Shown: piece after piece, positions 1 through 18,438 of the stretch | Numbering within the stretch: position 1 is the first letter of the stretch | Layout: the number at the start of each line of letters is the position of its first letter | Source: Phycisphaerae bacterium | Lineage (GTDB): Bacteria; Planctomycetota; Phycisphaerae; Sedimentisphaerales; Anaerobacaceae | Direction: 5' to 3' | Assembly (NCBI GenBank): GCA_030619925.1 | Contig: JAUXAL010000045.1 | Coordinates: 1-35,056 of the forward strand | DNA length: 35,056 nt | The notes under the pieces: generated by a model | What the model was told of the DNA's origin: nothing | Database searches by the model: none | Seen by the model: only the letters and a program-made list of their open reading frames with translations | Made by a program: the position numbers and the translations under genes

Positions 1-693
1 GCTCTGTCTAAAATTGGCTTTTTGAGCCTTAAATTCTCTTAAAACCACCTTCTTGTTATCAAAAAGTCGGTTACAATAACGAAGCTCACTCTCAATCCCA
101 TCCACTTCTAAAAACGCTGCTCATTTTGCAGAAGTCTTAAAATTGTTAATATTTGACGGGTCGCCACGTGCGCACCGTTATCGGCTTAGCCTTATTTTGA
201 GAAAATTCTGCTGATTGAAATCCATTTTGACTCTCTCCTCCAGAAAACTCAAGAGGCGTTAGCGCGTATTCAGAGTAGATTATCAAGTGTAGAAACGACG
301 TGTCTGCGCTATTCTTTCATAAGAATAGTCTGCCCGATTGAAACAAGTCTGTCAACAGGAAATTTCCATAAATGAGATTTTTTTGCAGGAACAGCGAATT
401 GGGCCTGAAAATCAGGATTTGTTTCTCCCCATCACCGCACCCAAGCCCCGTTAGAAGTCCACACAGGGTCTGACACCTTACTTCTAACGGGGCAAGCCGA
501 GCAGTGGTCTCTTGGTTTCTTATTGTTGTTATTCTGCTTCGATGAGAAACGTTGATTTTTTTGCAAGAGTTATGCAAAAGATTAAAACTTTAAGTTCTAA
601 ACTTAAAATTAGTATATAGCCCAGTTAACATTTTGTGGCAAAGTCCCGCCAATTTTTCAACCTGCTTCACGAGATAATTTCAAATTTCAAATT
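1..693. other. Left edge, no convincing gene
   Basis: No reading frame here has a family signature or a good ribosome site. The only long frame (minus, 317-577) runs through a palindromic element and has no recognisable domain, so it is left out. The stretch holds an 8-bp-stem hairpin at 309-328 (CTATTCTT / AAGAATAG) without a T-tract, one palindromic element (445-493), and a short tandem run of 'atttcaa' near 677-699 just downstream of the transporter operon. The operon's terminator is not obvious. Confidence 0.6.
445..493. repeat. Palindromic element, CCCGTTAGAAGT family (copy 1)
   Basis: A perfect 14-bp inverted repeat, GCCCCGTTAGAAGT at 445-458 and ACTTCTAACGGGGC at 480-493, surrounds a 21-bp centre. 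CAAGC occurs on both sides (442-446 and 493-497), which may be a short target duplication. The same ends recur at 1728-1784, 6528-6592, 16603-16707 and, in part, at 11902 and 18391. Element plus one flank is 51 bp, a multiple of three. Confidence 0.8.
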
Positions 694-1671
694 TCAAATC
701 AACTGCCAGCAAGCCACAAAGTGCCCCTTATAATTGCTTTTTTCCTTCAACATCGGCGTCTGCTCTAAACAATCGCCCGCTGCCAAAGGACATCTGGGGC
801 CAAAAGCGCAGCCGGTCGGCGGATTCAAGGCGCTCGGCACTTCGCCTCCCAATATGGTTCTCTGACCACGCTGGGACTGCTCGACCTGCGGAATTGCCGA
901 TATAAGCGCACGCGTGTAAGGATGCAGAGGGTTTCGATACAGCTCTTCGGCCGCGGCCCGCTCTACTATCCTGCCCATATACATAACCGCCACGACGTCA
1001 CAAAAAAACTCCACCACGGCCAGATCGTGTGCGATAAATAAGAATGTAAGCCCAAGTTCTTCCTGCAAATCTTTCAGCAAATTCAGAATCTGCGATTGAA
1101 TCGAAACATCAAGTGCGCTGACCGGCTCATCGCAAATAATCAGTTTCGGCTCCAGCGCCAGGGCTCTTGCGACTCCGATTCGCTGCCGCTGCCCGCCGGA
1201 GAACTCGTGCGGATAACGGTTTATATGCCCGGGCGACAGCCCCACCTTTGAAAGCAATACCGCAACCTGCTCAAAATAAGTGCCTCTGTGCCTCTGTGTT
1301 TTTTGAATCTTCAACGGCTCACCAATAATATTGCCGATGGTCATTCTTGGATTTAACGAGCTGTACGGGTCCTGAAAAATAAGGCTGATCCGGCTGCGAA
1401 GCCGGCGCAAATCCTCCCTGTCAGCTGACAGAACATCGGTCTGCTCGAAGACCACTTTCCCCGCCGTTGCCGGTACTAATCGAACTATACTTCTGGCAAC
1501 GGTCGTCTTCCCACAGCCGCTCTCGCCCACCAGACCCAGAGTCCGCCCTTTTTCGATACCGAAACTTATCCCGTCAACTGCTTTGACCTGCCCAATGGTT
1601 CGCCGCAGCAGACCTTTCTTTATAGGATAGTACGTCTTTAAGTTGTCAACGGCTAACAATTCGTCGCTCAT
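694..1671 (-). CDS. Peptide ABC transporter ATP-binding protein (DppF/OppF type)
   Basis: Cytoplasmic ATPase subunit, 325 residues, energising the peptide or nickel-type importer encoded just upstream. Visible motifs are Walker [10 protein letters not shown], the Q-loop region [13 protein letters not shown], signature FSGGQRQR, Walker B LIICDEP and switch His in AHD. The C-terminal oligopeptide-transporter extension carries the usual cysteine cluster (GCAFGPRCP ... C ... VACW). The ATG at 1671 is chosen because it overlaps the stop of the preceding ATPase as ATGA and follows AAAGGACAGGT. An upstream ATG at 1704 would only add 11 residues from inside the neighbour. Around residues 110-120 the segment [12 protein letters not shown] comes from a tandem 'tgcctctg' repeat (about 1284-1303), which looks like a small in-frame insertion. 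Substrate is not predictable from the sequence. Confidence 0.95.
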
Positions 1672-2735
1672 ACCTGTCCTTTCGCATACCAGCAGGCAAC
1701 GCACCGCCCCGGCCGGATTTGCCTCAGCCCGTTAGAAGTCCCTTTGTGGGTTTTACCTTGGTAAGCCGGTTTACTTCTAACGGGCCTCAGCTCCGGCTCG
1801 ACAGTCTGACATCTCTTATCATTGCAGCCTTTCGGGCAGCGAGGATGGAATTTACATCCCGCTGGAAAATCCAATGGCTCGGGAACACCGCCTGAGATTG
1901 TTGGCAGCCGCTGCCCACGAAAACCCAATCGCGGCAAAGACTTTAACAGCCCCCGGGTATAAGGATGTAAAGGTTCTTGAAAAAGTCTCCGGGTATCAGC
2001 CACCTCCACTATTTGCGATGCATACATCACAGCAACATTCTCAGCACGCTCAGCCACCACGCCCAAATCGTGCGTTATCAGCAGAATACTCATCCCGTTT
2101 TGTTTTTGCAGCTCGTCTAATAAATCCAGTATTTGTGCCTGAATTGTCACATCCAGCGCGGTAGTCGGCTCATCGGCTATGAGCAGCGCCGGCTCGCAGC
2201 TTGCCGCCATTGCTATCATAACCCGCTGCCGCATCCCTCCGGACATCTGATGTGGATATTCACGCGCCCGCTGTGCCGGGTCTGCAATACCTGCCTTTCG
2301 CAGCATCTCGACGGCATCCGCCCAGGCCTCTCTGCTGCTCTTTTTCTGATGCAGCCTGATGGCCTCGGCAATCTGGTTGCCCACCGTATATACCGGATTG
2401 AGACTTGTCATCGGCTCTTGAAAAATCATGGCGATTTTCCGCCCACGAACTCCCCGCATCTGGTTTTTGCTCAACGCCAACAGGTTCTTTCCCTCGAAAA
2501 CAACTTTACCGCCGACGATTTTGCCTTGTGGCGCCGGAACCAGTCGCATAATCGATAGCGCCGTAACACTCTTACCGCACCCACTTTCACCGACAAGTGC
2601 AAACGTCCTGCCTCTCTTTATCGAAAAGCCCACATCCTGCACCGCTTTGACTACGCCTTCTTCAGTGAAAAAGTGTGTCGAAAGATTCTCCACCGAAAGT
2701 AATGTCCCGTTATCACTCATACTTATTTTGGTCAT
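1668..2735 (-). CDS. Peptide ABC transporter ATP-binding protein (DppD/OppD type) with in-frame palindromic insertion
   Basis: Second ATPase of the importer, 355 residues from this start. Motifs are Walker [21 protein letters not shown], signature MSGGMRQR, Walker B LLIADEP and THD. The gene overlaps the permease gene upstream and the DppF-type gene downstream (ATGA). An internal ATG at 2720 ([13 protein letters not shown]) is an equally good start, since neither has a strong ribosome site. Near the C-terminus the family pattern EPELR...[11 protein letters not shown] is split by residues 318-338, encoded by a 57-bp palindromic element plus a 6-bp duplication of CTGAGG (Leu-Arg). The frame is kept, so the cysteine-containing tail is still made. 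Whether the extra 21 residues affect function is unknown. Confidence 0.95.
1728..1784 (-). mobile_element. In-frame palindromic element (copy 2) inside the DppD-type gene
   Basis: The element is 57 bp with 12-bp perfect inverted ends, CCCGTTAGAAGT and ACTTCTAACGGG. On the plus strand it is flanked by CCTCAG at 1722-1727 and again at 1785-1790, a clean 6-bp direct repeat expected of a target-site duplication. The inserted length, 57+6=63 bp, is exactly 21 codons, and removing it restores the expected [12 protein letters not shown] junction. No internal gene, so it would have to be moved by something elsewhere. Confidence 0.88.
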
Positions 2736-4733: not shown

Positions 4734-6614
4734 TTAATTTTTATACGCTGTGCGTTTGGCCATATCGATTCTACGGTACTTACTCAACCCGTATGCGAAA
4801 GCGTGCTGCTTGTAATTCTTATACCAGTCGTGGTGCAGCACATACGCGACCCGATGGTTTAACAAAGCCGCGGGGCAATCTTCCAGCGCGATAAGTTCCA
4901 TTCTTTGATAAAGCCGGCGTCGTTCGCCGCTGTCGGGCAATACTTGTGCTTTTTCATATAGTCTGTCAAAGTCAGGATTGGAGTAGTTGAATTTATTTCG
5001 CCCGGGCGTCTGATATTTGCTGTAGAACATCGACAAAAAATCTTGTGCATCGGGTATGCTTGCACTGGTACCGGAGCTGAACATCTGCGCGCTTTTGGTG
5101 TTTACCCTCTCCTGATAAGTAGGACGGTCCATATATTGCATTTCGACTTCGAGCCCGACAGTATCTAAGTTACGTTTGAGGAATTGGCCGAATTGACGGT
5201 ACCACGTATCTGTGCCGGGCATAGCTATTTTGAGCCTGGGCAGTGTTCCGCCGTGAATTTTCTCGGCCTCTTTCAACAGCTCTTTCGCCTTTTCCGGGTC
5301 ATACCGGGTGTATCCTTTTTCTTTTATCCCGGGATTGTAAGAGGGCATTACAGGCGGTATAAGGCCGTGGGCAACCAGGTGCCGATTGTTGAAAAACAGC
5401 TCGATAAACTTCTCGCGGTCGATAGCGTAGCTTATTGCCCGGCGAAGCGGCTTGTTCCTGCTCAGAACATCATCCGCCATGTTAAAGCCAACCCAGTAGG
5501 TTGACGGGTCCCTAAAGGTTTTCAGGCGTATGTTGCGCTGCTTCATTTCAGGTGTCAGTTCTCCAGTCCCCGTCATAACCTCATCGAAGCTGTCTTTGGG
5601 AATTACGGTGGCATCGACTTTGCCCTGCAAAAATAAAAGCCAGGCCGGCTGGCGCTCGTTGATTATGGTCCAGAGGACTCTATCGGCAAAAGGTATGGGT
5701 TTTCCGGCATCATCCAGATAGCCGGCTTCGGCGTCGCCGTCCTCGCCTTCGCTCGGGTATAGTTCGCCCCTGAAGGCCGGGTTGCGAACAAGCTCGATAT
5801 AGCTGCCGCGCCGCCAGACATTGAGCTTAAACGGCCCGGTACCTACGGGATGGCTTATAATATCCTTGCCGTAATAATCGACCGCCTCTTTGGCTACGGG
5901 CGCTGTTGATATATCCGCCAGCGCCGTGCACAGTTGTGGCCAGTGGGCTTGGCCATCCTGCGGAGGTTTTTTGAGCTTGATAACAAGAGTGTAGTCATCG
6001 GGAGCTGTCAATCCTTCAACCTGCCGCGAATAATCGACATCCTCGGCACTGCTGCAGTTCTTGGTATACTCACGAAACTCATCGAGTCCGACAATCTTGT
6101 TATCAAAGATAGACCAGTTCTGGCTCAGATACTTGATGTCAGCTACTCTTTTCAGCGAGAAAACAAAATCCTCAGCCTTTAATTCCCTTCCCTTTCCGCC
6201 CGTGAAGCACCGGTCATCTTGAAAGTAAACACCCTTTTTGATTCTTATGGTATAGGTGAGCAGATCCTCGCTGATTTGCGGCATATCTTCAGCCAATAGA
6301 GGCACAAGCTCGTATGGCCGCTTGAGGAAGTGATATTGATACAGACTCTCGAAAATCTGGCTGCCAACAATAACAGAATAGACGTCGCGCATATTGCCGG
6401 GGTCGAGGCCTTTTATCCTGGTGTAAAGGACGTGACGCAGGACCATTTCGTTCGGTTCTTCAACTGATGCGGAACCGTCGCATCCAGCGACAATCAACAG
6501 TGATGTAGTAAATACAACGCTTATTAACCCCGTTAGAAATCTACCCTTTTTTTTTGCCAATCTTATTGCCCTCCGAGAAATTTCTAACGTGGCAAACTTT
6601 AGCGCAAAATTCAT
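4734..6614 (-). CDS. Peptide-type ABC transporter substrate-binding lipoprotein (SBP_bac_5)
   Basis: Exported binding protein of the importer, 626 residues from ATG 6614. It has a basic n-region (AKKKGRF), a hydrophobic core and a lipobox LIVAGC, so it is probably a lipoprotein. The body matches the DppA/OppA family: LDPGNMRDVYSVIVGSQIFESLY, then HPVGTGPFKL and LRRAISYAIDREKF. A palindromic element (6528-6592) overlaps codons 8-29. Within it GGAGGGCAATAAGA precedes a TTG at 6560, which would give a tidier 608-residue precursor beginning MAKKKGRF; this may be the true start. An ATG at 6749 is unlikely because it would put 45 unrelated residues, coming from another repeat, before the signal peptide. 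First gene of the operon. Confidence 0.93.
   Translation of the reverse strand: MNFALKFATLEISRRAIRLAKKKGRFLTGLISVVFTTSLLIVAGCDGSASVEEPNEMVLRHVLYTRIKGLDPGNMRDVYSVIVGSQIFESLYQYHFLKRPYELVPLLAEDMPQISEDLLTYTIRIKKGVYFQDDRCFTGGKGRELKAEDFVFSLKRVADIKYLSQNWSIFDNKIVGLDEFREYTKNCSSAEDVDYSRQVEGLTAPDDYTLVIKLKKPPQDGQAHWPQLCTALADISTAPVAKEAVDYYGKDIISHPVGTGPFKLNVWRRGSYIELVRNPAFRGELYPSEGEDGDAEAGYLDDAGKPIPFADRVLWTIINERQPAWLLFLQGKVDATVIPKDSFDEVMTGTGELTPEMKQRNIRLKTFRDPSTYWVGFNMADDVLSRNKPLRRAISYAIDREKFIELFFNNRHLVAHGLIPPVMPSYNPGIKEKGYTRYDPEKAKELLKEAEKIHGGTLPRLKIAMPGTDTWYRQFGQFLKRNLDTVGLEVEMQYMDRPTYQERVNTKSAQMFSSGTSASIPDAQDFLSMFYSKYQTPGRNKFNYSNPDFDRLYEKAQVLPDSGERRRLYQRMELIALEDCPAALLNHRVAYVLHHDWYKNYKQHAFAYGLSKYRRIDMAKRTAYKN
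6528..6592 (-). repeat. Palindromic element (copy 3) at the binding-protein start
   Basis: Left end CCCCGTTAGAAAT (6528-6540) pairs with the right end ATTTCTAACGTGG (6580-6592) with one mismatch, so the copy is slightly decayed. It lies across the signal-peptide-coding region of the substrate-binding gene and leaves the frame open. It also supplies a strong ribosome-site-like GGAGG and a possible TTG start. No clear flanking duplication is left. Confidence 0.75.
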
Positions 6615-6640
6615 TTGCCTTAGTGAACTAAAGTGAAAGT

Positions 6641-6728
6641 GTAGAAGCACGTTTGTCGTTCTCGAAACTCGTATCGAAGCTGGAAGCTGGAGGCTGGATG
6701 CTAAAAAAAACGAGTTTCGAGCTTCTAT
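6641..6728. repeat. Second inverted-repeat family (copy A)
   Basis: Outer arms TAGAAGC (6642-6648) and GCTTCTA (6721-6727) and inner perfect 11-bp arms TCGAAACTCGT (6662-6672) and ACGAGTTTCGA (6710-6720) bracket a purine-rich 'gctggaagctggaggctgg' middle. A diverged copy lies at 34986-35055 with the same order of parts. Unrelated in sequence to the CCCGTTAGAAGT family. Confidence 0.75.
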
Positions 6729-7077
6729 AGCAAGCATCGATACAAGCATCGAAAACCTTAAACGATGGTCATGAACATTTTAGGCACTTTAGTTCACTTT
6801 AGCCACTTCAGTAATCAATTATCAGTAATTAATCATCAATAATCAACTCTTTTTAGCGTTTCCAGCAGGCTGCACCAATGGCCGATGCGACTTTTGGCTT
6901 TTCCTTGTTGGATTTTGGGCCCAAAATGACAAGCCGGGTTTCGTTTGACGCCAATTGCGGCTTTGGGTATTATGGCTTTTTTGTAGCTAAATTAGGGTTG
7001 ACTGAAATCTCTATGTTTTCCAGTTGTATGCGGTAGATAGCTTAGGTGACAAAAAGATAGGCTCCTTGGGGGATGAC
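6729..7077. repeat. Intergenic stretch with degenerate short repeats
   Basis: No gene seen. It holds 'ttaggcactttagttcactttagcc' like sequence at about 6780-6804, an inverted relative of the motif at 6618-6640 and of 10290-10330, and an AT-rich run of 'atcaataatcaa' words at 6811-6847. Such word-like repeats recur at 8390-8410, 10250-10280 and 10440-10487. The last part carries the leader of the TPR gene, with GGGGGATGAC before the start codon. Confidence 0.5.
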
Positions 7078-11896: not shown

Positions 11897-11980
11897 ATGA
11901 ACCCCGTTAGAAACTTGTCCGCCAGACGTACGGCGGACTTGTCTGACGACAGTCAAGAGTCAAGATTCAAAAAAGGGTGA
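11897..11980 (+). CDS. Short upstream frame before the sulfatase, made by a repeat element
   Basis: ATG at 11897 follows GAAGGAGTTATAGA, the best ribosome site in the area. Its 27 codons run almost wholly through a palindromic-element sequence and stop 4 bp before the sulfatase ATG, in another frame. It may be the remains of the sulfatase gene's original start, displaced by the insertion, and could now couple translation. It could also be meaningless. Confidence 0.4.
   Translation: MNPVRNLSARRTADLSDDSQESRFKKG
11902..11967 (+). repeat. Palindromic element, partial (copy 4)
   Basis: Left end CCCCGTTAGAAAC is intact; the matching right end is missing or decayed. Inside are the hairpin GTCCGCC/GGCGGAC and the phrase CTTGTCTGACGACAGTCAAG, both shared with the copies at 16603-16707 and 18311-18391, so these three make a longer subfamily. 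Confidence 0.7.
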
Positions 11981-16553: not shown

Positions 16554-16731
16554 CCAAAAGCCCTATTAACGTAAACCCGCCATACACGCGTGGTGGGTAA
16601 ACCCCGTTAGAACTCCCGCACGGAGCTTTGATACTTTCCGAATCTTGCCCGCCTTACGTCTGGCGGGCGAGACTGTCGTCAGACAAGTCCGATTTATTTC
16701 TAACGGGGGTAAACGCTTTTCTTTTGGGCAC
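16554..16731 (-). pseudogene. Prepilin-like gene start broken by a palindromic element
   Basis: On minus, GTG at 16731 begins V-P-K-R-K-A-F-T, the usual leader of this array, after AAAGG. A 105-bp element (16603-16707) then interrupts it. After the element comes GFTLIGLLV (about 16578-16554), the rest of the FTLIELLV motif, and the gene then ends. The insertion shifts the frame and a stop appears inside the element. A further small hairpin (ACCCGCCA / TGGTGGGT) lies between the parts. Confidence 0.7.
16603..16707. mobile_element. Palindromic element (copy 5), full length
   Basis: 105 bp with ends CCCGTTAGAA and TTCTAACGGG. GGTAAAC flanks it on both sides (16596-16602 and 16708-16714), a 7-bp direct repeat. 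The interior has the GCCCGCC/GGCGGGC hairpin with TTACGTCTGG and the GACTGTCGTCAGACAAGT phrase shared with copies 4 and 6. It disrupts a prepilin gene start. Confidence 0.82.
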
Positions 16732-17553: not shown

Positions 17554-18438
17554 TCAGTAGTCTTTGAAGCTTCTCATCCATTTCGGCCAGTTCTCAGGTT
17601 TAACGTTGCCGGCTATGGTCCAGGCCCCTGCCGTGTTGTACTCGCGATGCCACTTGAACGTCCACAACTGCTTAAGTCCAGCCCTTCTAACAGTCCAGTC
17701 CATAAAGAGGATGTTTACGAACCCATCATGCCGGTTGACGCAGAAACGCCTCATTTCATCAATACTTCCACCCGAGCCCTGCGCCCAGTATTGACCATCG
17801 AATTCCGGCGGTGTATCCTCGGGCCATACGGTGGCACTGGTTATCGCGCAATCCAGGAACACCGGTATATTACCTGCACCTGCAACGTTGGGCGTCCTCC
17901 AGAGATATGCAGGCACTCGTCTGGCTACGGTCTGCTTTCCTTGGATATTCAGGACCCATTGATTTATCCCTAAGCTACCGGCAATGGTCTTGCCCGTGTC
18001 ATCTTCCCGCGACCATGCTCCAAAGGGGACCCGTCCTCCTTCATTGTAAGGTTTCGTCGCCGTTGGGCAAAGGCATATTTTTGGGTCCACGTAGTAGCGC
18101 CGCACCTCGTGCTGCCATACCCATACCCTCTCAGGGAAATAGCCGTTATTATCTTCTGTGTACATCTCCCAGATAAGGCCCCATTGTTTGAGGTTCGACT
18201 GGCAGCCGACCGCCTTTGCCTGTTTCTTAACGCGCTGCAGCGCTGGCATCAATATCGCCATCAGTAACGCGATGATGGCAATCACTACCAAGAGCTCTAT
18301 CAACGTAAAGGCCGCTGGAAGTCCCACCCGAAGCTCCTGGGCTTTGCGAACTTGTCTGACGACAGTCAAGATTCGACTTACTTCTAACGGGGCAAAACCT
18401 TCCTTCCGGAGCGGCACTTTGTCGCATTGTTTATGCAT
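17554..18438 (-). CDS. Prepilin-like protein, array member 2, leader enlarged by a palindromic element
   Basis: Protein of 294 residues of the same type as its neighbours ([47 protein letters not shown]; ending [13 protein letters not shown]). The leader is about 45 residues, not 6-14. It reads [15 protein letters not shown], then a repeat-derived stretch starting [14 protein letters not shown], then [11 protein letters not shown]. Removing 29 codons would give [11 protein letters not shown] with the canonical Gly at -1, so the element seems to have split the cleavage site while keeping the frame; the present site has Ala at -1. The start at 18438 has only a weak, distant GGAGA. Whether it is still processed is an open question. 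Confidence 0.85.
18311..18391 (-). repeat. Palindromic element (copy 6) in a prepilin leader
   Basis: One end is intact (ACTTCTAACGGGG at 18380-18392); the other is decayed (GGCCGCTGGAAGTCC, about 18310-18324, 3 mismatches in the first 13). The interior has CTTGTCTGACGACAGTCAAGATTC like copies 4 and 5. TTT occurs on both sides in the coding frame. The net gain is 29 codons, in frame. Confidence 0.68.

Follow-up and report, generated by a model that had tools for sequence, protein, structure and literature searches.

A short palindrome inserted in frame in a planctomycete transporter gene is very probably a copy of a mobile family with a broad bacterial host range

The window, which is the whole stretch of 35,056 bp of planctomycete DNA analysed here, holds a gene for an OppD-like ATPase with a short palindrome near the C-terminal end of its coding sequence. 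This raises the question of whether the palindrome is a peculiarity of this gene or a copy of a mobile element that can reside in genes. Its inverted ends are perfect over 12 bp, the left one being CCCGTTAGAAGT (1728-1739) and the right one ACTTCTAACGGG (1773-1784), and counting the outer G..C pair at 1727/1785 extends them to 13 bp. The same 8 bp, GCCTCAGC, are found on both sides of the palindrome, and CTCA lies within them. The net gain of the gene is 63 bp or 21 codons, of which 19 residues are contributed by the element and 2 by the repeated CCTCAG, and the reading frame stays open through the insert. The protein matches the Pfam families ABC_tran and oligo_HPY; the insert is located beyond the oligo_HPY match (residues 243-302), within the short conserved tail of the ATPase. 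The protein probably still works with its insert. The sequence of this region agrees with the preliminary description of the locus, in which a palindrome with perfect 12-bp ends had been placed at 1728-1784 between two copies of CCTCAG.

The ATPase was sought in 61 genomes, the own genome included, and a match of some kind was found in all of them. Thirty loci were obtained, one of which is the window's own, and the other 29 (L080-L108) were all inspected. The element is missing at every one of these 29 loci, as judged by protein alignment in 28 cases and by DNA in the remaining one (L105), where a stop codon lies upstream of the site and the DNA continues through the site without the element. 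The 28 aligned orthologues read EP-x-(L/P)(R/K/M)...ACW without the 21 residues, and one of them, L092, has an unrelated 7-residue insert of its own further on. A single CTGAGG is retained at the site in L082 and L084, the empty site of the latter reading GAGCCGGAGCTGAGG-GAAGTT, while the window reads CTGAGG-element-CTGAGG. Since the relatives are empty and two of them have one CTGAGG, the 63-bp, 21-codon event was an insertion. The proposal that element and duplication together add 21 codons in frame is thereby borne out, as is the expectation of an empty site in orthologues.

The window contains ten matches to CCCGTTAGAAGT with at most 2 mismatches, compared to 2.25 expected and a maximum of 7 in 100 shuffles; copies and half sites of the window are listed in Table 1. 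The copy with the mutated right end lies in phase within a 671-aa ORF (4737-6749, minus strand), of which it encodes residues 53-73. A copy count for the whole genome, suggested in the preliminary description, gave 87 half sites CCCGTTAGAA in 4.02 Mb on 141 contigs (45 forward and 42 reverse) versus 12 for the reversed control (4 and 8). Close pairs of the form CGTTAGAA-N(12-42)-TTCTAACG number 19 in this genome, and the corresponding control pattern is found 0 times.

Table 1. Coordinates of the features of the window, and proteins of other loci in which one Pfam domain match crosses the insert
Feature	Location	Strand	Remarks
Palindromic element	1728..1784	.	57 bp, perfect 12-bp inverted ends
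Target repeat CCTCAG, left copy	1722..1727	.	core 4-bp duplication CTCA at 1723-1726
Target repeat CCTCAG, right copy	1785..1790	.	core CTCA at 1786-1789
OppD-like peptide ABC transporter ATPase	1668..2735	-	355 aa, insert near C-terminus
Second complete copy	447..491	.	45 bp, perfect ends, CAAG on both sides
Third copy	6529..6591	.	63 bp, mutated right end, without exact 4-bp repeat
Longer copy	16603..16707	.	105 bp
Single half site	18380..18391	-	just upstream of prepilin-like stretch
Half site, 2 mismatches	11903..11914	+	without intact partner
RsmH	L125		insert inside domain match; Nomurabacteria
HypE-like AIRS_C	L128		insert inside domain match
PGK	L214		insert inside domain match
LipA-like radical SAM	L206		insert inside domain match
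RibD_C	L197		insert inside domain match
PolA exonuclease domain	L182		insert inside domain match; Nomurabacteria
GDE_C	L114		insert inside domain match
RACo	L205		insert inside domain match
Thymidylate synthase-like	L009		insert inside domain match; own genome, E 5e-7
Further radical SAM protein	L223		insert inside domain match; 27-bp copy without duplication

To describe the family, loci were retrieved by their ends, and a catalogue of 195 distinct copies was compiled from 241 sequences. An exact left CCCGTTAGA was required, the maximum length was 130 bp and, when a left end could be paired with more than one right end, the choice fell on the better flank match, which biases the duplication counts of the catalogue upwards. 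The catalogued copies are 26-128 bp long, the commonest lengths being 60, 63, 51 and 57 bp. Flank positions -5 to -2 agree with +2 to +5 in 76-83% of the copies. An exact 4-bp repeat is present in 117 of the 195 copies and absent from 78, compared to a mean of about 14 and a maximum of 24 in 500 shuffles. The base between the repeat and CCC/GGG is complementary to its opposite in 112 of these 117 copies (C-G in 87, T-A in 23, A-T in 1, and G-C in 1, which is the copy at 1728-1784). As this outer base pairs with its opposite and the next four bases are repeated, the end is defined as YCCCGTTAGA and the duplication as 4 bp. The family ends thus read YCCCGTTAGA...TCTAACGGGR, and the duplicated target is best read as YNNR; TTTA and TAAA are the commonest duplications, and the target is often G-YNNR-C. 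A duplication of 6 bp was rejected, because agreement at positions -6/+1 and -1/+6 is seen in only about half of the copies, and -1 is complementary to +1 in 112 of the 117. The presence of CCTCAG on both sides of the window's element stands as described before, but the duplication is better taken as 4 bp, the part duplicated family-wide, which here is CTCA. We also considered whether homogenisation of the arms by cruciform repair explains the complementary outer base. This was rejected, since 28 of the 117 copies match on neither side, which such repair does not predict; this number is below the shuffle mean of 42.

A check that is free of partner choice was made on 8 copies among the 76 pairs of the Omnitrophota genome G100, which were picked mostly for similar interiors with their flanks unseen. 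The 4-bp duplication is exact in all 8 (TTTA in four, and TTTG, TTAG, TGAA and CTAA in one each). Several of them are near-identical inside and lie at separate places, which is the pattern left by recent movement. Two identical 33-bp copies of a planctomycete (G003) both lack a duplication, so that 8 of the 10 copies retrieved for checking have an exact one. Near-identical 38-bp copies flanked by TTTA were observed in four Deltaproteobacteria/Desulfobacterales loci (L135, L139, L151 and L201), of which that of L135 differs by one base, and copies nested within copies occur in L054 (element at 2001) and L168 (93-180).

The family extends beyond planctomycetes to several bacterial phyla. Close pairs were found in 24 of 100 genomes, the own genome included; 10 genomes have at least 3 pairs and 14 have 1 or 2, and the richest are G023 (47), G003 (31), G053 (24) and G019 (14). 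The control pattern was found in 10 of the 100, with 1-2 matches each except for 30 in G032. Genomes with 1-2 pairs therefore prove little, because the control yields as many. The 30 matches of the relative G032 to the control AAGATTGC-N(12-42)-GCAATCTT probably represent another short palindrome family. Among 117 Omnitrophota genomes, 17 contain pairs and 0 contain a control match, and the 76 pairs of G100 are packed in 1.4 Mb. A pattern scan of species genomes returned at least 116 stretches, whose taxa are a sample. The 140 copies catalogued from this source, among the matches listed, include 32 from Omnitrophota, 29 from Planctomycetota, 29 with no phylum named, 7 from Myxococcota (all in one record) and 6 from Nitrospirota, with smaller numbers from Thermodesulfobacteriota, Elusimicrobiota and many Patescibacteria groups; an exact 4-bp repeat accompanies 85 of the 140. 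Actinomycetota, Bacillota and other taxa represented by one or two copies that lack the repeat may be there by chance. Spread by phages was considered and rejected: 5 and 9 stretches were found in a viral collection, which is near our rough chance estimate, and the single case on a phage contig, L241, has a 609-aa ORF that by eye resembles a terminase large subunit.

A copy was scored as residing in coding sequence if it lies in an uninterrupted ORF of 100 aa or more, with 25 aa or more ahead of the insert and 15 or more behind it. This applies to 50 of the 195 copies, namely 6 of 34 from the own genome, 9 of 21 from relatives and 35 of 140 from species genomes. The copy at 1728-1784, which was catalogued from a locus cut at 1,991 bp (L002), is not among the 50. 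The length is a multiple of three in all 50, which is partly forced by the criterion, and also in 73 of the 145 other copies; the length counts are not independent, because copies of one subfamily share their length. The encoded peptide reads PVR...SNG in 37 of the 50 and TPLE...LTG or a near variant in 13. Two of the three codon phases are used and the third is closed by stops. With two phases open, a gene remains readable if the net gain from a copy is divisible by three. The same openness is seen outside ORFs: when the 73 copies with lengths divisible by three were read on both strands (146 readings), one phase was open in 108 (mean 85, maximum 98 upon shuffling of the interior only) and the other in 95 (mean 79, maximum 89).

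For a Pfam search we chose 20 proteins from a pool made up of the 50 and the OppD-like ATPase. In 10 of the 20, one domain match crosses the insert (Table 1). The match is split into two stretches in YbeY (L223) and in a chorismate-binding enzyme (L116). The insert falls outside the best match or on its border in SecA (L137), a LeuD-like protein (L149) and the OppD-like ATPase, among others, and no Pfam match was obtained for the proteins of L044 and L173. Compared to the structure 1m6y, the RsmH of L125 has 19 unmatched residues directly before DGI(I/L)xDLG. A PDB search with the PGK returned nothing at a strict cut-off, and the PDB matches of SecA stop short of its insert. A 1130-aa Omnitrophica protein of L173 (1380-4769) has two near-identical inserts reading (T)xLDKSxSQDKHYLTGFT. 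In prepilin-like proteins, which were named by eye, a copy or half site is found just upstream of the motif (G)FTLIELL (L185, element at 2723-2773; L059; L068; window, 18380-18391), and the favoured target GTTTAC can encode G-F-T. The leader of type IV prepilins is normally cleaved off, and inserts before this motif may therefore do no harm.

Taken together, copies of the family are inserted with a duplication, occur in high numbers and reside in frame in genes. We therefore take the insert at 1728-1784, with a probability of about 0.88, to be one copy of a mobile palindrome, short and non-autonomous, that behaves like the Rickettsia palindromic elements (RPEs) but belongs to a different family. 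In the available parts of two reviews (PMC2229807, PMC10969869), RPEs are palindromic, have 12-bp inverted ends and lie in frame within genes, including conserved ones, and the product of a guanylate kinase gene with an RPE was shown to be active. Their length is given there as 105-146 bp, or about 150 bp in the second review, they are described as Rickettsia-specific, and their target duplication is stated to be unknown. Our family likewise enters protein-coding genes in frame. Judged against these published descriptions, it differs in length (57 bp here, 26-128 bp in the family) and in its host range, which comprises Planctomycetota, Omnitrophota, Patescibacteria groups and others, and it has a 4-bp duplication and, in part of the copies, a T fold. 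The likeness to RPEs proposed in the preliminary description is thus upheld for the entry into genes in frame, but not for membership of that family, as length and host range differ.

Which machinery moves the family is a separate matter. By eye, no transposase ORF was recognised beside unpaired half sites of the own genome. REP elements are linked to RAYT (Y1) transposases, and a partner of this kind was sought with PF01797 in 30 genomes. The number of Y1 genes does not track the number of elements: G019 lacks a Y1 match in spite of its 14 pairs, and G020 has 9 Y1 matches and no pair. Of 30 Y1 loci, 0 have an exact end, 9 have one match with one mismatch and none is flanked on both sides, and this candidate was rejected. 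According to the available text of PMC3733652, REPs are extragenic palindromes of 20-40 bp. Our family resembles them in being short, palindromic and present in many copies, and differs from that description in its duplications, its intragenic copies and its lack of a tie to Y1 genes. No DDE partner (PF01609, PF13701) was recognised either: the loci obtained in six element-rich genomes (5 matches and 1 weak one) have no exact ends. One-mismatch matches occur at 5 of the 6 loci, singly except in L280, which has two in the wrong order for a pair. The integron attC site, whose R boxes GTTAGA/TCTAAC resemble, was considered and tentatively set aside on the orientation of those boxes.

It may be, at somewhat less than even odds, that the family is an ordinary set of MITEs, that is, shrunken copies of an insertion sequence with the same ends, which are moved as a duplex by a DDE transposase that is missing from or unassembled in the drafts. 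Inverted ends and a target duplication of fixed length are the usual marks of MITEs, and draft metagenome assemblies often lose insertion sequences, so that they may hide the mobilising enzyme. Against this view, DDE_Tnp_1 matches number 0-2 per element-rich genome and are absent from two of the six; the draft G023, with its 47 copies, has none, and the DDE loci have no exact ends. Nor did the 241 sequences, which gave 14 long spans, show a recognisable gene enclosed by matching ends and flanks. Two of these spans, in L173 and L167, were inspected and turned out to be pairs of short copies; the others measure 164-618 bp, except for a weak one in L214 (1525 bp). Two bound proteins can hardly be brought together by looping a duplex of 30-60 bp. 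Copies of 26-128 bp (with a search maximum of 130) would be very short for duplex end pairing, and a paired interior is superfluous in a duplex model. Compared to the bacterial MITEs in the available parts of the reviews (PMC2229807, PMC10969869), namely Correia/NEMIS, RUP, ERIC and the Coxiella QMITE, our family is alike in being short, with inverted ends, no transposase gene and a target duplication (4 bp). Those elements are described as small and without a transposase gene, with inverted ends, a target duplication and occasional in-frame fusions, and as mostly 100-200 bp long, with TA at the ends and each from one host group; our family is shorter, has a YNNR duplication and occurs in many phyla. 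A parent insertion sequence with YCCCGTTAGA ends was not found in the draft genomes.

The interior of the copies points in another direction. A T fold, consisting of an outer stem and two hairpins of 6-8 bp and unlike sequence, was found in 23 of 92 copies of 55-66 bp, compared to a mean of 0.82 and a maximum of 3 in 100 shuffles of single interior bases. The arm sequences vary among copies and yet pair: at 13 of 16 arm positions, between four and six kinds of base pair are seen; these were counted on a selected, structure-fitted alignment, for which the shuffle test serves as control. T-shaped copies occur in Planctomycetota, Omnitrophota, Nitrospirota, Riflebacteria and several Patescibacteria groups. 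The copy at 1728-1784 folds as a weak T only and is absent from the 23. Given that some copies measure no more than about 30 bp and that a T fold is seen in part of them, what moves may be a folded form, either a hairpin or a cruciform. The ends would be recognised in trans by an enzyme that makes 4-bp staggered cuts. Our tentative reading, which we hold to be possible rather than probable, is that of one minimal mobile family across phyla, which would move as a folded T-shaped single strand by means of an unrecognised enzyme, leave a 4-bp duplication, be shaped by having passed through coding regions (lengths of 3n, two open phases) and spread in essential genes as inserts of 10-25 residues.

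A conserved fold with changing arm sequences would also agree with selection on an RNA structure, and 145 of the 195 copies lie outside recognised ORFs. It is nonetheless unlikely that the host retains the palindromes because they serve it, for instance as a transcript hairpin, a terminator or a peptide tag, with their number reflecting selection and not selfish movement: their presence among relatives is patchy (24 of 100 genomes), the host genes are unrelated, two codon phases are used, and Rfam 15 gave 0 covariance-model matches in the window at gathering thresholds. A chance or local origin, with a gene-specific C-terminal extension and a palindrome due to coincidence or replication slippage, has almost nothing left to it beyond other C-terminal variation such as that of L092, as it is contradicted by the recurrence of the 12-bp ends in the genome with 87 half sites versus 12, the control counts, the empty sites and the duplications.

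In the open PMC text, we found among the matches listed no paper on YCCCGTTAGA ends, on their peptides or on such inserts in these phyla. The available parts of the reviews treat RPE-like palindromes inserted in frame as a peculiarity of Rickettsia (PMC2229807, PMC10969869). The present findings support the existence of in-gene palindromic elements with a broad host range and with copies in housekeeping genes. The family would explain puzzling short inserts of the types PVRN...SNG and TPLE...LTG in proteins from metagenome-assembled genomes, and it raises the question of which enzyme moves a hairpin of 30-60 bp and leaves a 4-bp duplication. With copies in rsmH, pgk, polA, lipA and oppD, it would supply new peptide segments to proteins in general.
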